A stretch of DNA of 64,000 bases from Kiritimatiellia bacterium. Lineage in GTDB: Bacteria; Verrucomicrobiota; Kiritimatiellia; PWTM01. The position numbers were made by a program, and so were the translations under genes. The notes under the pieces were generated by a model. That model worked only from the letters and a program-made list of their open reading frames with translations. It was not told the DNA's origin and ran no database searches. The stretch covers positions 1 to 64,000 of the forward strand of contig JAOACR010000018.1 of NCBI GenBank assembly GCA_026417735.1, read 5' to 3'. Below are positions 22,384 to 29,907 of the stretch, one piece after another (positions within the stretch are counted from its first letter, which is position 1; each line of letters opens with the position of its first letter).

Positions 22384-23895
22384 TCACGGGTAGAGGCGGC
22401 CCATCATGCGAGGGAAGGGTATCGCCTCGCGAATGTGACGGAGACCGCAGATCCAGGCGATGAACCGCTCCAATCCGAGGCCGAACCCACCGTGCGGCAC
22501 GGAGCCGTAGCGCCGCAGATCCAGGTACCATTCATAGGCGGCCGGATCGAGCTTCTCTTCGCGCATGCGCGCCAGCAACGGTTCGAGGCGGTCCTCCCGC
22601 TGGCTGCCGCCAATGATCTCGCCGTAGCCTTCCGGTGCCAGCATATCCACGTTCAACACCACGCGGGGGTCATCCGGCGCCGGTTTCATGTAGAACGCTT
22701 TCACGCCGCGCGGGTAGCGGGTGATCATCAGCGGCCGGTCAAACAGACGGGAGAGAATCGTTTCCTCGTCGCCGCCCAGATCGTCGCCCCACTGGAAGCG
22801 TGCCGCGGAGTCCAGCCGGGCTGCGCGCTGCTCGAGGTCCTGGCCGAGGTGGGCGACGTCCTCTCGCAGTTCAGCGATCTCGCGGGCCAGCCGGTCCTGG
22901 GGCCACCCTTTGCGCGCGGTCTCCGCTTCGCGTTCGAGCGCGGCGAGCCGCTCGCGCATCCCGGCAAGACGTTCACGGTCGCGTTCGATTTCCTCGCGCA
23001 TGCGCCGATGGGTGTCTTCGCTGCGCAGCAGTTCCACCGCCTCGCTGTAGGTAATGCGGGGGAAGGGGGCTTTGACGCGCTCCAGCGGCGACGGATCACG
23101 GCCGAGTAAAGCGAGTTCGGCGCGGTGCTCGGCGAGCACGCGGGCGACCAGCGCGCCGACCAGTTCCTCCGCGATTGCTAGCACCTCGTCCAGCTCTGCC
23201 CACGCGATCTCCGGCTCCAGCATCCAGAACTCGGTGAGATGCCGCCGAGTTTTCGATTTTTCCGCGCGGAATGTTGGGCCGAAACAGTAGACCCGCCCCA
23301 GCGCCATTGCGGCGGCCTCGAGGTAGAGCTGACCGGTCTGCGCCAGATAAACGGTCTGGCCGAAGTACTCGACCGGGAACAGCGTCGCGGCGCCCTCGGC
23401 CGCGCCCGGCGCGAGGATCGGCGTGTCCACCCGCACGAACCCGCGCGCCGCGAACCATTCGTGAATGGTTCGGATCAGCGTGTCCCGAATGCGCAGAATC
23501 GCGCACTGGCGCGGCGAACGCAGCCACAGGTGGCGGTGACGCAGCAGAAAGTCCACGCCGTGTTCCTTGCGTGCGATCGGGTAGTCCGCGACCGGCTGGA
23601 CCACCTCAAGGCGCGTGACCGAGAGCTCCACTCCGCCGGGTGCGCGCGGGTCCGCACGAACCGCGCCGGCGACCCGCACCGACGACTCGTGCCCGAGGTC
23701 CGTGGCCACACGGAACGCCTCCGCCTGCACCGCCTCCACCACGCACTGCACGACGCCGGTCCCGTCGCGCACCAGCAGAAAGACGATTTTTCCGCCGCTG
23801 CGTCGGCCGTGGACCCACCCTTGCACGATCACCTCGCGCCCGATCTGGGTGGGTAGCTCCGCAATCCGCGACACGGTCAGCGTTTCACCGCTCAT
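22384..23895 (-). CDS. asnS: asparaginyl-tRNA synthetase with a coiled-coil insertion
   Basis: Class IIb synthetase charging tRNA-Asn, cytoplasmic. The OB domain carries VIVQGWVHGRRSGGKIVFL. The catalytic core has YFGQTVYLAQTGQLYLEA, motif 2 FGPTFRAEKSKTRRHLTEFWMLEPE, KAFYMKPAPDDPRVVLNVDMLAP-like sequence, GEIIGGSQRE and motif 3 PHGGFGLGLERFIAW. Residues about 296-365 form a charged, heptad-like coiled coil between motifs 2 and 3, where E. coli AsnRS has only a short loop; total length is 503 versus about 466. It is minus-strand, immediately upstream of a DUF481 gene with a 4-base gap. Confidence 0.95.
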   Translation of the reverse strand: MSGETLTVSRIAELPTQIGREVIVQGWVHGRRSGGKIVFLLVRDGTGVVQCVVEAVQAEAFRVATDLGHESSVRVAGAVRADPRAPGGVELSVTRLEVVQPVADYPIARKEHGVDFLLRHRHLWLRSPRQCAILRIRDTLIRTIHEWFAARGFVRVDTPILAPGAAEGAATLFPVEYFGQTVYLAQTGQLYLEAAAMALGRVYCFGPTFRAEKSKTRRHLTEFWMLEPEIAWAELDEVLAIAEELVGALVARVLAEHRAELALLGRDPSPLERVKAPFPRITYSEAVELLRSEDTHRRMREEIERDRERLAGMRERLAALEREAETARKGWPQDRLAREIAELREDVAHLGQDLEQRAARLDSAARFQWGDDLGGDEETILSRLFDRPLMITRYPRGVKAFYMKPAPDDPRVVLNVDMLAPEGYGEIIGGSQREDRLEPLLARMREEKLDPAAYEWYLDLRRYGSVPHGGFGLGLERFIAWICGLRHIREAIPFPRMMGRLYP

Positions 23896-25366: not shown

Positions 25367-26030
25367 TTGAGCGCCCTCATCGCTGTGAGCTCATCCTAGG
25401 GAGGCGGGGTGAGGATCGCAAGCGTACGGTCGCGCGGCCGATGAGGGACCTCGAGGCCTTTGCGGGCTTGCGGTCCGGCACGGCTCGCCAGACAGGGGGG
25501 CTTTGCGTGGCTCCTTGGAGACAGGACGCGAGGCAAAGGCGGGGCGCTGCTGTTCGCGCGTGGGCGGACGATGGCGGCGTCCATGGATTGGAAGCCGCCG
25601 GCCACGGAGTCTCCAAGGCTTGGAACGACAATACGCGACCATACGGTACGGTTGGCTGCGTGTGATGGTGGGACGGCGCACGGGTGCGGTGGAGCGCCGC
25701 TTGCCGCCTGCCGGTGCGCCGACCGCGAGTGTGGTGCGGGACTTCTGTCGCCCGTATGTGGAGCTCGCAGGGGGGACGGTAGTGGCGTGAGGGCTGCGAG
25801 TATGGGAACGCGAAGAGCAAGAAGAGATCGTGTCCCAAGCGGTGCGCGATCGCGGCAGGGATGATTTTGCGGGCAGGGGGAGGAGTCCGGAGGCTTTGTG
25901 CGGGCAGATGGCCGATTCAAGGCGACGCCGGCAAGCCTGAGGGTCTGTCCCCGAAACCGAGGAATCATTGCGGGAGCGGAACTTGCGCGCCGGTGACAAC
26001 GGGGCGCTGAAATGCGGTCGAAATTTTTTC
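25367..26030 (+). other. gene-free region upstream of the dcw cluster
   Basis: About 660 bases between the DUF1080 start and the candidate mraZ promoter. Open frames exist on both strands (for example 25460-25864 plus and 25377-25838 minus), but none has a plausible ribosome site, codon usage or a recognisable domain. The region carries two TCCAnGGnTTGGAA boxes, listed separately. It also carries a nested hairpin: GGCGCAC at 25675-25681 pairs with GTGCGCC at 25714-25720. I see no tRNA, RNase P, tmRNA or SRP RNA consensus. Confidence 0.5.
25580..25625. repeat. pair of near-palindromic TCCAnGGnTTGGAA boxes
   Basis: TCCATGGATTGGAA at 25580-25593 and TCCAAGGCTTGGAA at 25612-25625 match at 12 of 14 positions and are offset by exactly 32 bp, about three helical turns. 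Each is close to a dyad (TTCCAA/TTGGAA type half-sites). I found no other intergenic copy in this window. It may be an operator pair, or a degenerate copy of a dispersed repeat family. Confidence 0.5.
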
Positions 26031-26086
26031 TTGACGCGTGGTGGGGAATAGTGTCACATGGTGTCAGAAAGAGCAGCGAGGTGTCA
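26031..26086 (+). promoter_or_regulatory. candidate mraZ promoter with 10-bp phased GTGTCA array (putative MraZ operator)
   Basis: A TTGACG (26031-26036) could serve as -35; the matching -10 region (about 26054) is poor. Immediately downstream, GTGTCA recurs at 26051, 26061 and 26081 in strict 10-base phase, with degenerate units GTGGGG at 26041 and GAGCAG at 26071. From known biology, MraZ binds direct repeats spaced about 10 bp upstream of its own gene and represses it (TGGGN boxes in E. coli, GTG-containing boxes in mollicutes). The array sits in the right place for autoregulation. Assignment is inference. Confidence 0.5.
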
Positions 26087-26116
26087 GACTCGGTTCCAGC
26101 GTTGGGTCAGGAAGGG

Positions 26117-26575
26117 ATGGAGACGGTGCCGTATTTCTGCGGTCAGTACCGGCATCAGCTCGACCCGAAGCTGCGTCTGACGATTCCGGCGGAATGGCGG
26201 GAGAAGGTCGGTAAGCCGCCGCAGTTTTTCATCGTGCCGAGTGTCGGCGAACAGCGGCTGCTCTACGCGTACCCCGCGCGTGTGATGAGCCTGAAGTTTC
26301 GGAACATTCACAACCTTTCGATGGCGGACGCAAAGGGTCGGGCGTATCTGCGGATTATGGGGGCGCGCTCGGAGCTGGTGGGGTGGGACTCGCAGGGGCG
26401 CATTCGCATTCGGGATGAGTTGCTGGCGCACGCGGGGCTGAGTCGCAGCAGCGGAGTGCTGCTGGTGGGCAATTTCGAAGGGTTCGAGCTCTGGAATCCG
26501 GAGCGCTGGGCGGCGTTCGAGTCCGGCATTGACGATCAGGGACTGCTGGAGGCCTCCCAGTACGTCGGCGTCTGA
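26117..26575 (+). CDS. mraZ: transcriptional regulator MraZ
   Basis: Ring-forming DNA-binding protein that begins the dcw cluster and regulates it. Two tandem AbrB/SpoVT-like repeats are visible. The first has GQYRHQLDPKLRLTIPAEWR with the D-x-x-x-R motif; the second has LGWDSQGRIRIRDELLAHAGL with D-x-x-G-R. The frame is open from 26012, but that start would run through the phased repeats and give a non-homologous extension. The ATG at 26117 (METVPYFCGQY) follows GGAAGG closely and yields the normal 152 residues. An unknown small ORF and rsmH follow. Confidence 0.93.
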   Translation: METVPYFCGQYRHQLDPKLRLTIPAEWREKVGKPPQFFIVPSVGEQRLLYAYPARVMSLKFRNIHNLSMADAKGRAYLRIMGARSELVGWDSQGRIRIRDELLAHAGLSRSSGVLLVGNFEGFELWNPERWAAFESGIDDQGLLEASQYVGV

Positions 26576-26602
26576 GCTCGGGCGGAGACGGAGGATCACA
26601 CA

Positions 26603-26821
26603 ATGGTGAGGATCGCGAGGTATCTGGGAATCAACCGTTCGTTGGACAGTTCGATTGAGGAGCCGAAGCGGTACGAGCTGCCGGCGGGCGGAGTTCGGGC
26701 GTGGGAGGGCTGGTGGGGGCGCTGGGGACTGCGTCGGGAACCGACGGGGCGGCCGGCGGCTCGCGCGGTGCGCTTCCATGACCCGCTGGTGCGCAGTGGT
26801 GGTGTCCGGATTCTGTTCTGA
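26603..26821 (+). CDS. small hypothetical protein between mraZ and rsmH
   Basis: A 72-codon ORF fills the mraZ-rsmH gap. It has a good ribosome site (GGAGG about 8 bases before ATG 26603) and its stop lies 2 bases before the GTG of rsmH, so translation fits the operon. The product is basic and rich in Arg, Trp and Gly (for example GGVRAWEGWWGRWGLRREP), with no signal peptide or membrane helix. I recognise no family. It could be a coupling ORF for rsmH or a lineage-specific division factor. The tight spacing is the main support. Confidence 0.55.
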   Translation: MVRIARYLGINRSLDSSIEEPKRYELPAGGVRAWEGWWGRWGLRREPTGRPAARAVRFHDPLVRSGGVRILF

Positions 26822-26823
26822 CG

Positions 26824-27768
26824 GTGGAGCCGACGCGACACGCGCCGGTGATGGTCGCCGAGGTGTTGCGGTGGCTGCGGCCGCGGCCGGGAGGCCGATA
26901 CGTGGATGCGACGCTCGGTGGTGGAGGACACGCGGAGGCGGTGCTGACCGCGAGCGAACCGGACGGCCGCCTGCTGGGGATTGACGCCGATCCCGAAGCG
27001 ATCGAGCGGGCGTCCGCCCGGTTGGCGAGATTCGGCGGACGTGTGGTGACGGTACACGCCAGGTTCTCATCGCTCCGGCAAGTGGCCGCCGCGCACGGCT
27101 TTGTGCCGAGCGACGGTGTGCTGATGGATTTGGGGGTCTCGTCGGATCAGCTGGAGACGCCTCGCCGGGGCTTCAGTTTTCAGTTGAGCGGTCCGCTCGA
27201 CATGCGGATGGATCCCCGCAGCGCGCCCACTGCCGCGGAGATAGTGAACCTGTGGCCGGAGGGGCGGCTGGCGGAACTGTTCCGGCGGTGGGGGGAGGAG
27301 CCGCGCGCGGCGCGGATCGCGCGAAGGATCGTCGCGCGCCGTGCGATTCGCCCGATTGAGACGACCGACGAGCTGGCCCGGATTGTTGCGGAGGCGGTGG
27401 GGCGGGGAGCAGGCGCGCGGCATCCGGCGACGCGGGTGTTTCAGGCGCTGCGCATCGCGGTGAACCGGGAGCTGGAAGAACTCGAGCGGGGGCTGGCGGC
27501 GGCGTTGGACATCGTGGGCGAAGGGGGGCGGGTGGTGGTGATCGCATTTCACAGTCTTGAGGACCGGTGCGTGAAACAGACCTTCCGTGCGCACGAGCCC
27601 CGATGCGAGGGGCGGCCGGAGGGGGGTGTCCGATGGACGTTCGAGCCCCCGCCGGTGAAGGTGATCACGCGACACGCGCTGCGGCCAGCGGCCGAGGAGG
27701 TGGCGGCCAATCCCCGGGCGCGGTCCGCACGGCTGCGGGTGGCGGAGCGGACAGCCGCGCCATGTTGA
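26824..27768 (+). CDS. rsmH: 16S rRNA (cytosine(1402)-N(4))-methyltransferase
   Basis: Methylates C1402 in the ribosomal P site using SAM (also called MraW). Motifs are HAPVMVAEVLRWL, the SAM loop YVDATLGGGGHAEAVL, DGVLMDLGVSSDQLETPRRGFSF, MRMDP, RVFQALRIAVNRELEELE and VVVIAFHSLEDRCVKQTF. Length is 314 residues, normal for the family. The start is GTG at 26824 (VEPTRHAPVM), 2 bases after the small ORF stop. Its end overlaps the ftsL-like gene by 7 bases. Confidence 0.96.
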   Translation: MEPTRHAPVMVAEVLRWLRPRPGGRYVDATLGGGGHAEAVLTASEPDGRLLGIDADPEAIERASARLARFGGRVVTVHARFSSLRQVAAAHGFVPSDGVLMDLGVSSDQLETPRRGFSFQLSGPLDMRMDPRSAPTAAEIVNLWPEGRLAELFRRWGEEPRAARIARRIVARRAIRPIETTDELARIVAEAVGRGAGARHPATRVFQALRIAVNRELEELERGLAAALDIVGEGGRVVVIAFHSLEDRCVKQTFRAHEPRCEGRPEGGVRWTFEPPPVKVITRHALRPAAEEVAANPRARSARLRVAERTAAPC

Positions 27769-28139
27769 GCCGGCGTCGAGCTCGGGTGCGGGCCGCCCCG
27801 CAGGGGGGAGCGGCGCTCGGCGTGGTGCTGTGGTTGGTGGCCGCGGCCGCGGCGGGGCTGGGCTATGTGCAGCTGAGCGTGCGGGTGCGCGCGCTGGCGC
27901 GCGAGGTGGCGGCGGCGGAAGAGGCGCTGGTGCGCCAGCGGCAGTTCCGACTGAACGAGGAGGGACGTTGGGCGCAGCTCTGCGCGCTAAAACCGGTCCG
28001 CGCGGCGCTGCAGCAGTTCGGCATTGCGATGGACTGGGCCGGCAGCGAGCGGATGGTCTACCTCGTGCGGGAGGTGGCAGCGCCGGCGCCGGCCGCGACC
28101 GGCGAGACCCGCTGGGCGCGCGTGCGGCGGGAGCCGTGA
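27762..28139 (+). CDS. ftsL: FtsL-like cell division protein
   Basis: Small bitopic membrane protein of the divisome; FtsL forms a coiled coil with FtsB and recruits FtsWI. The product has a short basic cytoplasmic tail, one transmembrane helix (about residues 20-40, GVVLWLVAAAAAGLGYVQL), then a heptad-like stretch (VRALAREVAAAEEALVRQRQ). FtsL is poorly conserved, so the call rests on topology, size (125 residues) and position between rsmH and ftsI. The ATG at 27762 lies within the end of rsmH. One base separates its stop from ftsI. Confidence 0.8.
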   Translation: MLSRRRARVRAAPQGGAALGVVLWLVAAAAAGLGYVQLSVRVRALAREVAAAEEALVRQRQFRLNEEGRWAQLCALKPVRAALQQFGIAMDWAGSERMVYLVREVAAPAPAATGETRWARVRREP

Positions 28140-28140
28140 A

Positions 28141-29907
28141 ATGCGTGCGTGGAGTCGAGGCCATCGACTGCTGGTGGTGCTGGCGGGACTGCTGGCGCTG
28201 TTCGCGGCGTATGCGTTTCGGCTGACCTCACTGCATACCCGCGAGCTCGATCCGGTATTCCGTGGCCCAGTGACGCGGGAGGTTCGGATCGAGACGCCCG
28301 CCCCGCGGGGGCGGATCCTCGATCGCAACGGCACCGCGCTGGCGCTCGACGTGCCGTTGTACCGACTGAACGCGGATCCCGAGGGGGTGGTGCTGGACGG
28401 GCTGGTCGTCGCGTACGCGGAGCTGTTTGCACGATTGCTGGGGCTGGACCGCGTGGAGCTGCAGCGGCGGCTGCAGCAGCCAGAGCGCCGGCAGGTGTAC
28501 CTCGCCGACGGCCTGACCCGGGAGCAAATCGACCACATCCGCCAGCTCAAGCTCCGCCATATCTGGTGGGAGGAAACGCCGCGGCGCCAGTATCCGCTGC
28601 GCGAGCTGGCCTGCCATGTGGTCGGCTTTGTGAACGCCGAGCGCGTCGGTGCCGCCGGCATCGAAATGGCCTATCACCGGTGGCTGAAGGGCCGGCCGGG
28701 TGTTCGGGTGACGGTACGGAACGCGCGCCGCCAGGAGATCGCCGACCAGCGGCGATTCGATCTGCCCGCGGAGCCTGGCGCGACGGTCGAGCTGACGCTG
28801 GACGCCGTCGTGCAGACGGTGGTGGAGGACGCGCTCGATGAGGCAGTGCGGCTGCACCGGCCGCTCGGCGCCTGGGCGATCGTGTTGGACGTGCGCACCG
28901 GCGAGGTTCTCGCGATGGCCTCGCGGCCCGCGTTCGACCCCAACAACTACGGCGCCAGCAGCCTCGACCACCACCTGAACCGCGCGATCGGCTACGTGTA
29001 CGAGCCGGGCTCTACGTTCAAGGCCGCGACGATCGCGGCGGCGCTCGACGCCGGCGTCGTGCGCGCGGACACTCCGTTCGACTGCGAGCACGGGGTCTGG
29101 TACTACCGCGGACGTCCCCTGCGCGATTTTCACCCCTACGGCCAGCTCACCGTCGCAGGTATCGTGCAGAAGTCCAGCAACATCGGCGCGGCCAAGATCG
29201 CGGTGATGCTGGGCGACGCCGCGCTGGACACGTATCTGCGCAACTTCGGGTTCGGCACGCGCACCGGCATCGAACTGCCCGGCGAGGAGTCCGGTATTCT
29301 GCCGCCGCGGCGTCAATGGGACTCACTGACTGCGACGCGCATCGCAATGGGCCACAGTGTTGCGGCGACCGCGCTGCAGATGATTTCCGCGCTCGGTGCG
29401 ATCGGCAACGGCGGCGTGCGGATGAAACCGGTGATCGTTCGACGCGTCACCGACGCGCGCGGCCGCACGCTCCATGAGTTCTCGCCCACTGCGGCCGCGA
29501 CGCCGCTTCGCGCGGACTCCGCGCGGCTGATGACCGAGTTGCTGGTGGGCGTCACTGCGCCCGAGGGCACCGGACGCCGCGCGGCGGTGCCGGGCTACCG
29601 GGTGGCCGGGAAGACGGGCACCGCGATCAAGGCTGGCGTGGGGGGCTATGACCACCACCGCAACATCGCCTCCTTCATGGGTCTGATCCCGGCCGATTCG
29701 CCGGCACTGGGCATCATCGTTGTGGTGGATGAGCCGCAGCCGGAACACACCGGTGGGGTGGTCGCTGCGCCGGTGTTCCGGCAGATCGCGCAGGACGTGG
29801 TGCGGTATCTCGGCATTCCGCCGTCGGAGCCAGCGCGGCCCGCGGTGGCGCCGGGCATCGAGATGCCGCCGGAGGGTGACGCCGATGTGGATTGGTCAAC
29901 TCTGTGA
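28141..29907 (+). CDS. ftsI: peptidoglycan D,D-transpeptidase FtsI (PBP3)
   Basis: Septal class B penicillin-binding protein cross-linking new peptidoglycan. It has one N-terminal transmembrane helix (about residues 8-26) and a dimerisation domain opening with RGRILDRNGTALALDV. The transpeptidase domain has S291-T-F-K294, S345-S-N347 and K491-T-G493. At 588 residues the length is normal. There is no C-terminal PASTA domain. The ATG at 28141 follows the ftsL stop by one base, and an earlier in-frame start at 28024 lies inside ftsL. Confidence 0.95.
   Translation: MRAWSRGHRLLVVLAGLLALFAAYAFRLTSLHTRELDPVFRGPVTREVRIETPAPRGRILDRNGTALALDVPLYRLNADPEGVVLDGLVVAYAELFARLLGLDRVELQRRLQQPERRQVYLADGLTREQIDHIRQLKLRHIWWEETPRRQYPLRELACHVVGFVNAERVGAAGIEMAYHRWLKGRPGVRVTVRNARRQEIADQRRFDLPAEPGATVELTLDAVVQTVVEDALDEAVRLHRPLGAWAIVLDVRTGEVLAMASRPAFDPNNYGASSLDHHLNRAIGYVYEPGSTFKAATIAAALDAGVVRADTPFDCEHGVWYYRGRPLRDFHPYGQLTVAGIVQKSSNIGAAKIAVMLGDAALDTYLRNFGFGTRTGIELPGEESGILPPRRQWDSLTATRIAMGHSVAATALQMISALGAIGNGGVRMKPVIVRRVTDARGRTLHEFSPTAAATPLRADSARLMTELLVGVTAPEGTGRRAAVPGYRVAGKTGTAIKAGVGGYDHHRNIASFMGLIPADSPALGIIVVVDEPQPEHTGGVVAAPVFRQIAQDVVRYLGIPPSEPARPAVAPGIEMPPEGDADVDWSTL

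Follow-up and report, generated by a model that had tools for sequence, protein, structure and literature searches.

A probable MraZ operator of three phased GTG boxes ahead of mraZ in a Kiritimatiellia bacterium

The 10-bp phased array ahead of mraZ in the 64-kb stretch of DNA analysed here (the window, 64,000 nucleotides) is very probably an autoregulatory MraZ operator, as a sequence-only reading had claimed, because the array keeps its phase, is conserved throughout the class, stands alone in the genome by model score and lies ahead of mraZ. It can be proposed with high confidence that a predicted MraZ ring on the boxes at 26041, 26051 and 26061 limits expression of its own operon, with the ribosome-binding region then at 26071 and the start codon at 26081. 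From the sequence and its relatives we infer MraZ binding, repression, the exact -10 and the transcription start.

The phased array

Read directly in 10-bp steps from 26041, the units are GTGGGGAATA (26041), GTGTCACATG (26051), GTGTCAGAAA (26061), GAGCAGCGAG (26071) and GTGTCAGACT (26081), so that the stretch from 26031 runs TTGACG-CGTG-GTGGGGAATA-GTGTCACATG-GTGTCAGAAA-GAGCAGCGAG-GTGTCAGACT. GTGTCA had been placed at 26051, 26061 and 26081, after TTGACG (26031) and before mraZ, and these coordinates were correct on re-reading. The units at 26041 and 26071 had both been called degenerate, which holds for 26071; GTGGGG at 26041 matches the E. coli-type TGGGN box exactly, and no unit is better conserved in the class. 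The features of the array are as follows:

26031..26036, plus strand: probable -35, TTGACG, beginning ten bases before box 1; TTGAC stands at that distance in most class loci
26041..26046, plus strand: MraZ box 1, GTGGGG, E. coli-type, the most conserved unit (direct reading, class alignment, comparison with MG1655)
26051..26056, plus strand: MraZ box 2, GTGTCA, overlapping the probable -10 (T and G at unit-2 positions 2-3 in class operators)
26054..26059, plus strand: probable -10, TCACAT, weak, with a 17-base spacer, suggested by conserved A/T-rich positions inside unit 2 in the class
26061..26066, plus strand: MraZ box 3, GTGTCA, where transcription is expected to start (direct reading, class alignment)
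26067..26080, plus strand: probable ribosome-binding region (GAAAGAG, 26067-26073), running into degenerate unit 4 (26071); purine-rich in the class, with the start codon next
26081..26086, plus strand: unit 5, GTGTCA, the predicted mraZ start codon GTG and possibly a fourth MraZ contact (start-codon conservation at +40/+41)

GTGTCA is rarer than expected in the 64-kb window (16 sites against 23.4), and three of the 16 are packed into 36 bases in 10-bp phase. The 150 bases ahead of ATG 26117 were shuffled 20,000 times with dinucleotides preserved: none of the shuffles contained three phased GTGTCA, 0.04% contained a run of three GTG[G/T] at 10 bp, and 0.21% contained any 6-mer three times in phase, the last being the fair chance figure for an open-ended reading. 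As 64 kb had been read, the window sequence taken alone gives only moderately strong evidence; at 0.21% it is suggestive, and it is therefore the cross-species evidence that decides.

The mraZ gene and the dcw cluster

The genes identified after the array are:

26081..26575, plus strand: mraZ, 164 codons from GTG 26081 (alternative start ATG 26117, 152 aa), identified by PF02381, its DxxxR motifs and solved MraZ chains
26824..27768, plus strand: rsmH (mraW), the next conserved dcw gene (PF01795, 344 bits)
28024..29907, plus strand: division transpeptidase of FtsI type, its true start probably further in (PF00905, PF03717)

The presence of rsmH and the division transpeptidase after mraZ indicates that mraZ opens the dcw cluster. 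The protein, the only MraZ copy in the genome, matches PF02381 with 48.1 bits (cut-off 23) through its second half-repeat only, the first being divergent, and solved MraZ chains match it by sequence with an E value of 9e-6. Both DxxxR motifs are kept, D16-R20 (DPKLR) and D91-R95 (DSQGR) in numbering from ATG 26117, and their D and R are invariant in nine MraZ proteins, that of E. coli included. The first half-repeat (26117-26340) is without a Pfam match, and the first DNA-contact motif is DPKLR, as against DSKGR in E. coli.

Two further observations concern the neighbourhood. Between mraZ and rsmH lies a 72-aa open frame (26603-26821) without a Pfam match, which is kept at the same place in the order with identities of 60% (L039), 49% (L042), 37% (L041) and 37% (L040). 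On the minus strand, 22384-23895 encodes an asparaginyl-type class II tRNA synthetase whose catalytic domain holds a charged insert, from the translation probably a coiled-coil.

Conservation in relatives

Besides the window's own mraZ locus, the comparison covered 80 others from Kiritimatiellia and neighbours, 81 in all. A run of three or more GTG[G/T] boxes spaced exactly 10 bp apart is found in 61 of the 81 against 0.05 expected; the same run at 8, 9, 11 or 12 bp occurs in none of them, and six control positions in the same loci hold no GTG[G/T] three-box run. The class consensus is TTGAC-N4-G-GTGGGGCAAA-GTG[T/G]T-N-[T/A]AAA-GTG[T/G][C/G][A/G]CA, in which box 1 is conserved by selection, the loci having been anchored on TTGAC and the first GTG[G/T], and boxes 2 and 3 are unselected. 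Positions 2-3 of unit 2 are T and G in 100% of nonredundant class operators, with no selection for them.

By its named relatives, the window's genome belongs to the Kiritimatiellia. Eight genomes of its family, its own included, have mraZ, and in every one a phased array precedes the gene, so that the phased repeats looked for in close relatives are kept by all seven of them, one (L008) with just two clean boxes. The nearest relative, whose MraZ is 93% identical, has GTGGGG, GTGTCA, GTGTCA, a degenerate unit and GTGTCA in the same succession as the window, and another genome of the genus has three successive GTGTCA ahead of mraZ. Pairwise identity within the family is 0.70 in the -35 stretch, 0.64 in boxes 1-3 and 0.45 in unit 5, with most flanking zones at 0.27-0.37. 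A further member of the family (G006, a genome 83% complete) gave neither an mraZ match nor a hit of the operator model described below.

Arrays with a 10-bp period are recognisable in several other classes of the phylum as well, several of them with TGG cores. Genomes with two MraZ-like genes also occur in other classes (G199, G203, G206, G208, G210, G212, G216, G218, G220, G222). At locus L171 of one of these, G206, the 10-bp array ahead of mraZ reads AGGAGTAAAT AGGGGTAAAA AGGAGCAAAA AGGAATAAAA, a clearly different unit, which makes it a better candidate than the window's array for a truly changed box.

Start codon or fourth box

The unit at 26081 had been taken for a plain repeat unit; it is most likely the start codon of mraZ. 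Of 76 loci, 56 have an open in-frame ATG or GTG at +40 or +41 relative to box 1, compared with at most six of the 76 at any other offset from 30 to 59. In 25 of the 56 this codon is ATG, and in 25 of the 56 it is displaced from the phase by one base, which would not be tolerable for a strict box and is unlike boxes 1-3. Translation from GTG 26081 reads MSDSVPALGQEGMETVPYFCG into MraZ, the predicted N-terminus being MSDSVPALGQEG from this codon and METVPYF from ATG 26117. With 26081 as start codon and 26071 as ribosome-binding site, three strong boxes are left.

A tentative alternative, on balance unlikely, is an operator in which all five units, 26071 and 26081 included, are MraZ contacts and translation starts at ATG 26117. 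The conservation of open starts at +40/+41 and their looseness in letter and phase speak against it, whereas [AG]TG is still kept at +40/+41 in 16 of the 20 loci where a start there is impossible, the GTCA of unit 4 is in phase in many loci, and Burkholderia has four repeats. One clade (Pontiellaceae and kin) supplies ten of the 16 exceptions. The kept [AG]TG makes it possible that 26081 is also a fourth putative MraZ contact, the other reading being that it is a relic of a former start.

Promoter and proposed control

In the arrangement favoured here, that of three boxes followed by a ribosome-binding region and a start codon, transcription is expected to start near 26066, leaving a leader of about 15 bases. 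The GTG[G/T] boxes read by the MraZ ring would be those at 26041, 26051 and 26061, which would span the spacer of the promoter together with the -10 and the transcription start; as the boxes are one DNA turn apart, their GTG cores would lie on one face of the helix, the arrangement that a ring-shaped MraZ requires. Once bound, MraZ would shut out RNA polymerase, resulting in less MraZ and less expression of the dcw operon. The ribosome-binding region would fall at the unit at 26071 and the mraZ start codon at that at 26081, which the ring would perhaps touch too. A strict sigma-70 promoter scan found no promoter because the -10 is weak, and an Rfam scan of 25400-26900 gave no match.

It is very improbable that only a core promoter (TTGAC and -10) and a ribosome-binding site are conserved and that the repetition at 10 bp is accidental. 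Both TTGAC and the A/T-rich -10 region are indeed conserved; however, a promoter has no need for GTG at exact 10-bp steps in its spacer, -10 and +1, GTGK pairs number 142 at a distance of 10 and 1-2 at distances of 9 and 11, and in E. coli the same three boxes lie outside the -35/-10. Slighter still is the chance that another regulator reading GTG repeats is responsible, such as the restriction controller HsdC with its (GTGTTAN5)2 site: HsdC and MraZ boxes are alike (PMC5282649), but the HsdC spacing is 11 rather than 10, the MraZ site is unbound by HsdC (PMC5282649), and the array follows mraZ throughout the class. A coding or chance repeat, the array lying inside the open frame from ATG 26012 (26012-26575), has next to no probability and is ruled out by conservation, as the 10-base period is out of step with codons and the array is not produced by shuffles and is kept in relatives.

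Search for further sites in the genome

The operator sequence model was built from 48 operators with the window's order excluded. Applied to the 3.09-Mb genome with E up to 10, it returned a single site, 26031-26065, with an E value of 3.9e-5, the best 150 of 576 first-look candidates having been scored. The mraZ operon thus appears to be the sole strong target in the genome among those best 150 of 576 candidates, and the operon has likewise been reported as the only strong MraZ target in M. genitalium (PMC8475190). In the further genomes searched, strong hits fell directly upstream of mraZ wherever the position of mraZ was listed. Over nine genomes of the family, the model gave no hit in two (G004, G006) and a weak hit elsewhere in G002; boxes ahead of mraZ were seen by eye in G004 and G002 despite this result. 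The bare three-box pattern occurs eight times in the whole genome compared with ten in the reversed control, which is chance level and gives no sign of a further regulon; the boxes alone are thus not specific without their surrounding sequence.

Box type and MraZ residue 17

Position 17 of MraZ, directly after the first D of DxxxR, is proline in 39 of 40 proteins with a TCA box 3; where box 3 is GGG-like, 9 of 26 proteins have it. When placed on the tree, the association between box-3 type and proline 17 is not significant, with two supported independent pairs (six on all branches) and about eight box switches; the link is suggestive and was rejected as a significant one once kinship was considered. 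Several other MraZ columns correlate with box-3 type more strongly than position 17, and these stronger correlations probably arise through kinship. A wider proposal for Kiritimatiellia holds that one predicted MraZ ring spans promoter, ribosome-binding site and start codon, that a fourth box has merged with the start codon, and that the preference has moved from GTGGGG to GTGTCA together with a proline after the first D of DxxxR; taken as a whole, this is doubtful.

Implications

An operator of this kind would add a phylum for which regulatory data are scarce to those with MraZ self-control, and the class-wide consensus can serve for promoter annotation and for correcting mraZ start codons. 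Operators with GTGGGG boxes and operators with GTGTCA boxes form a natural series that could be used to work out how specific the MraZ ring is. No new mechanism is revealed; this type of MraZ operator is already known.

Comparison with known MraZ sites

The MraZ boxes at the E. coli mraZ promoter are said to have been described as TGGGN repeats by Eraso et al. in 2014. In the MG1655 sequence ahead of mraZ, the boxes read GTGGGAAATT-GTGGGGCAAA-GTGGGAATAA and stand downstream of the -10. Both systems have three direct repeats with a GTG core and a 10-bp period before mraZ in the dcw cluster, and box 1 of the window is GTGGGG; however, every E. coli box is GTGGG[A/G], whereas boxes 2 and 3 of the window are GTGTCA, and the window's boxes begin ten bases past the start of the -35 and run across the -10. 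TGGG is found in box 1 of the window only, and it is not defining outside E. coli because the Mollicutes box allows GTGT.

That Mollicutes site is given as (AAAGTGKN3)3, where K is G or T, as quoted from Fisunov et al. 2016 in PMC5282649 and PMC8475190. It shares the GTG[G/T] core, the 10-bp period and the three units, and the class consensus likewise has AAA-GTG[G/T]; the window genome differs in having ATA and ATG before GTG and a TCA extension after it. In Burkholderia cenocepacia, MraZ binds a PmraBc fragment in which GTG recurs four times at 10-base intervals; these repeats were recognised from a repeated GTG motif stated to be common to B. subtilis, E. coli and mycoplasmas (PMC7761207). 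The repeats, of 7 + 3 bases, also overlap the transcription start and binding of the fragment by MraZ is demonstrated, the differences being that there are four of them and that they are reported downstream of the -10.

The claim that the box differs from that of E. coli is therefore not supported, since box 1 is GTGGGG as in E. coli and the GTG[G/T] core at 10 bp is known from Mollicutes and was used for Burkholderia. The shared core is GTG[G/T]-N6 and GTGTCA a local variant within this known core; what differs here is the three letters that follow GTG and the register of the predicted boxes relative to the promoter.
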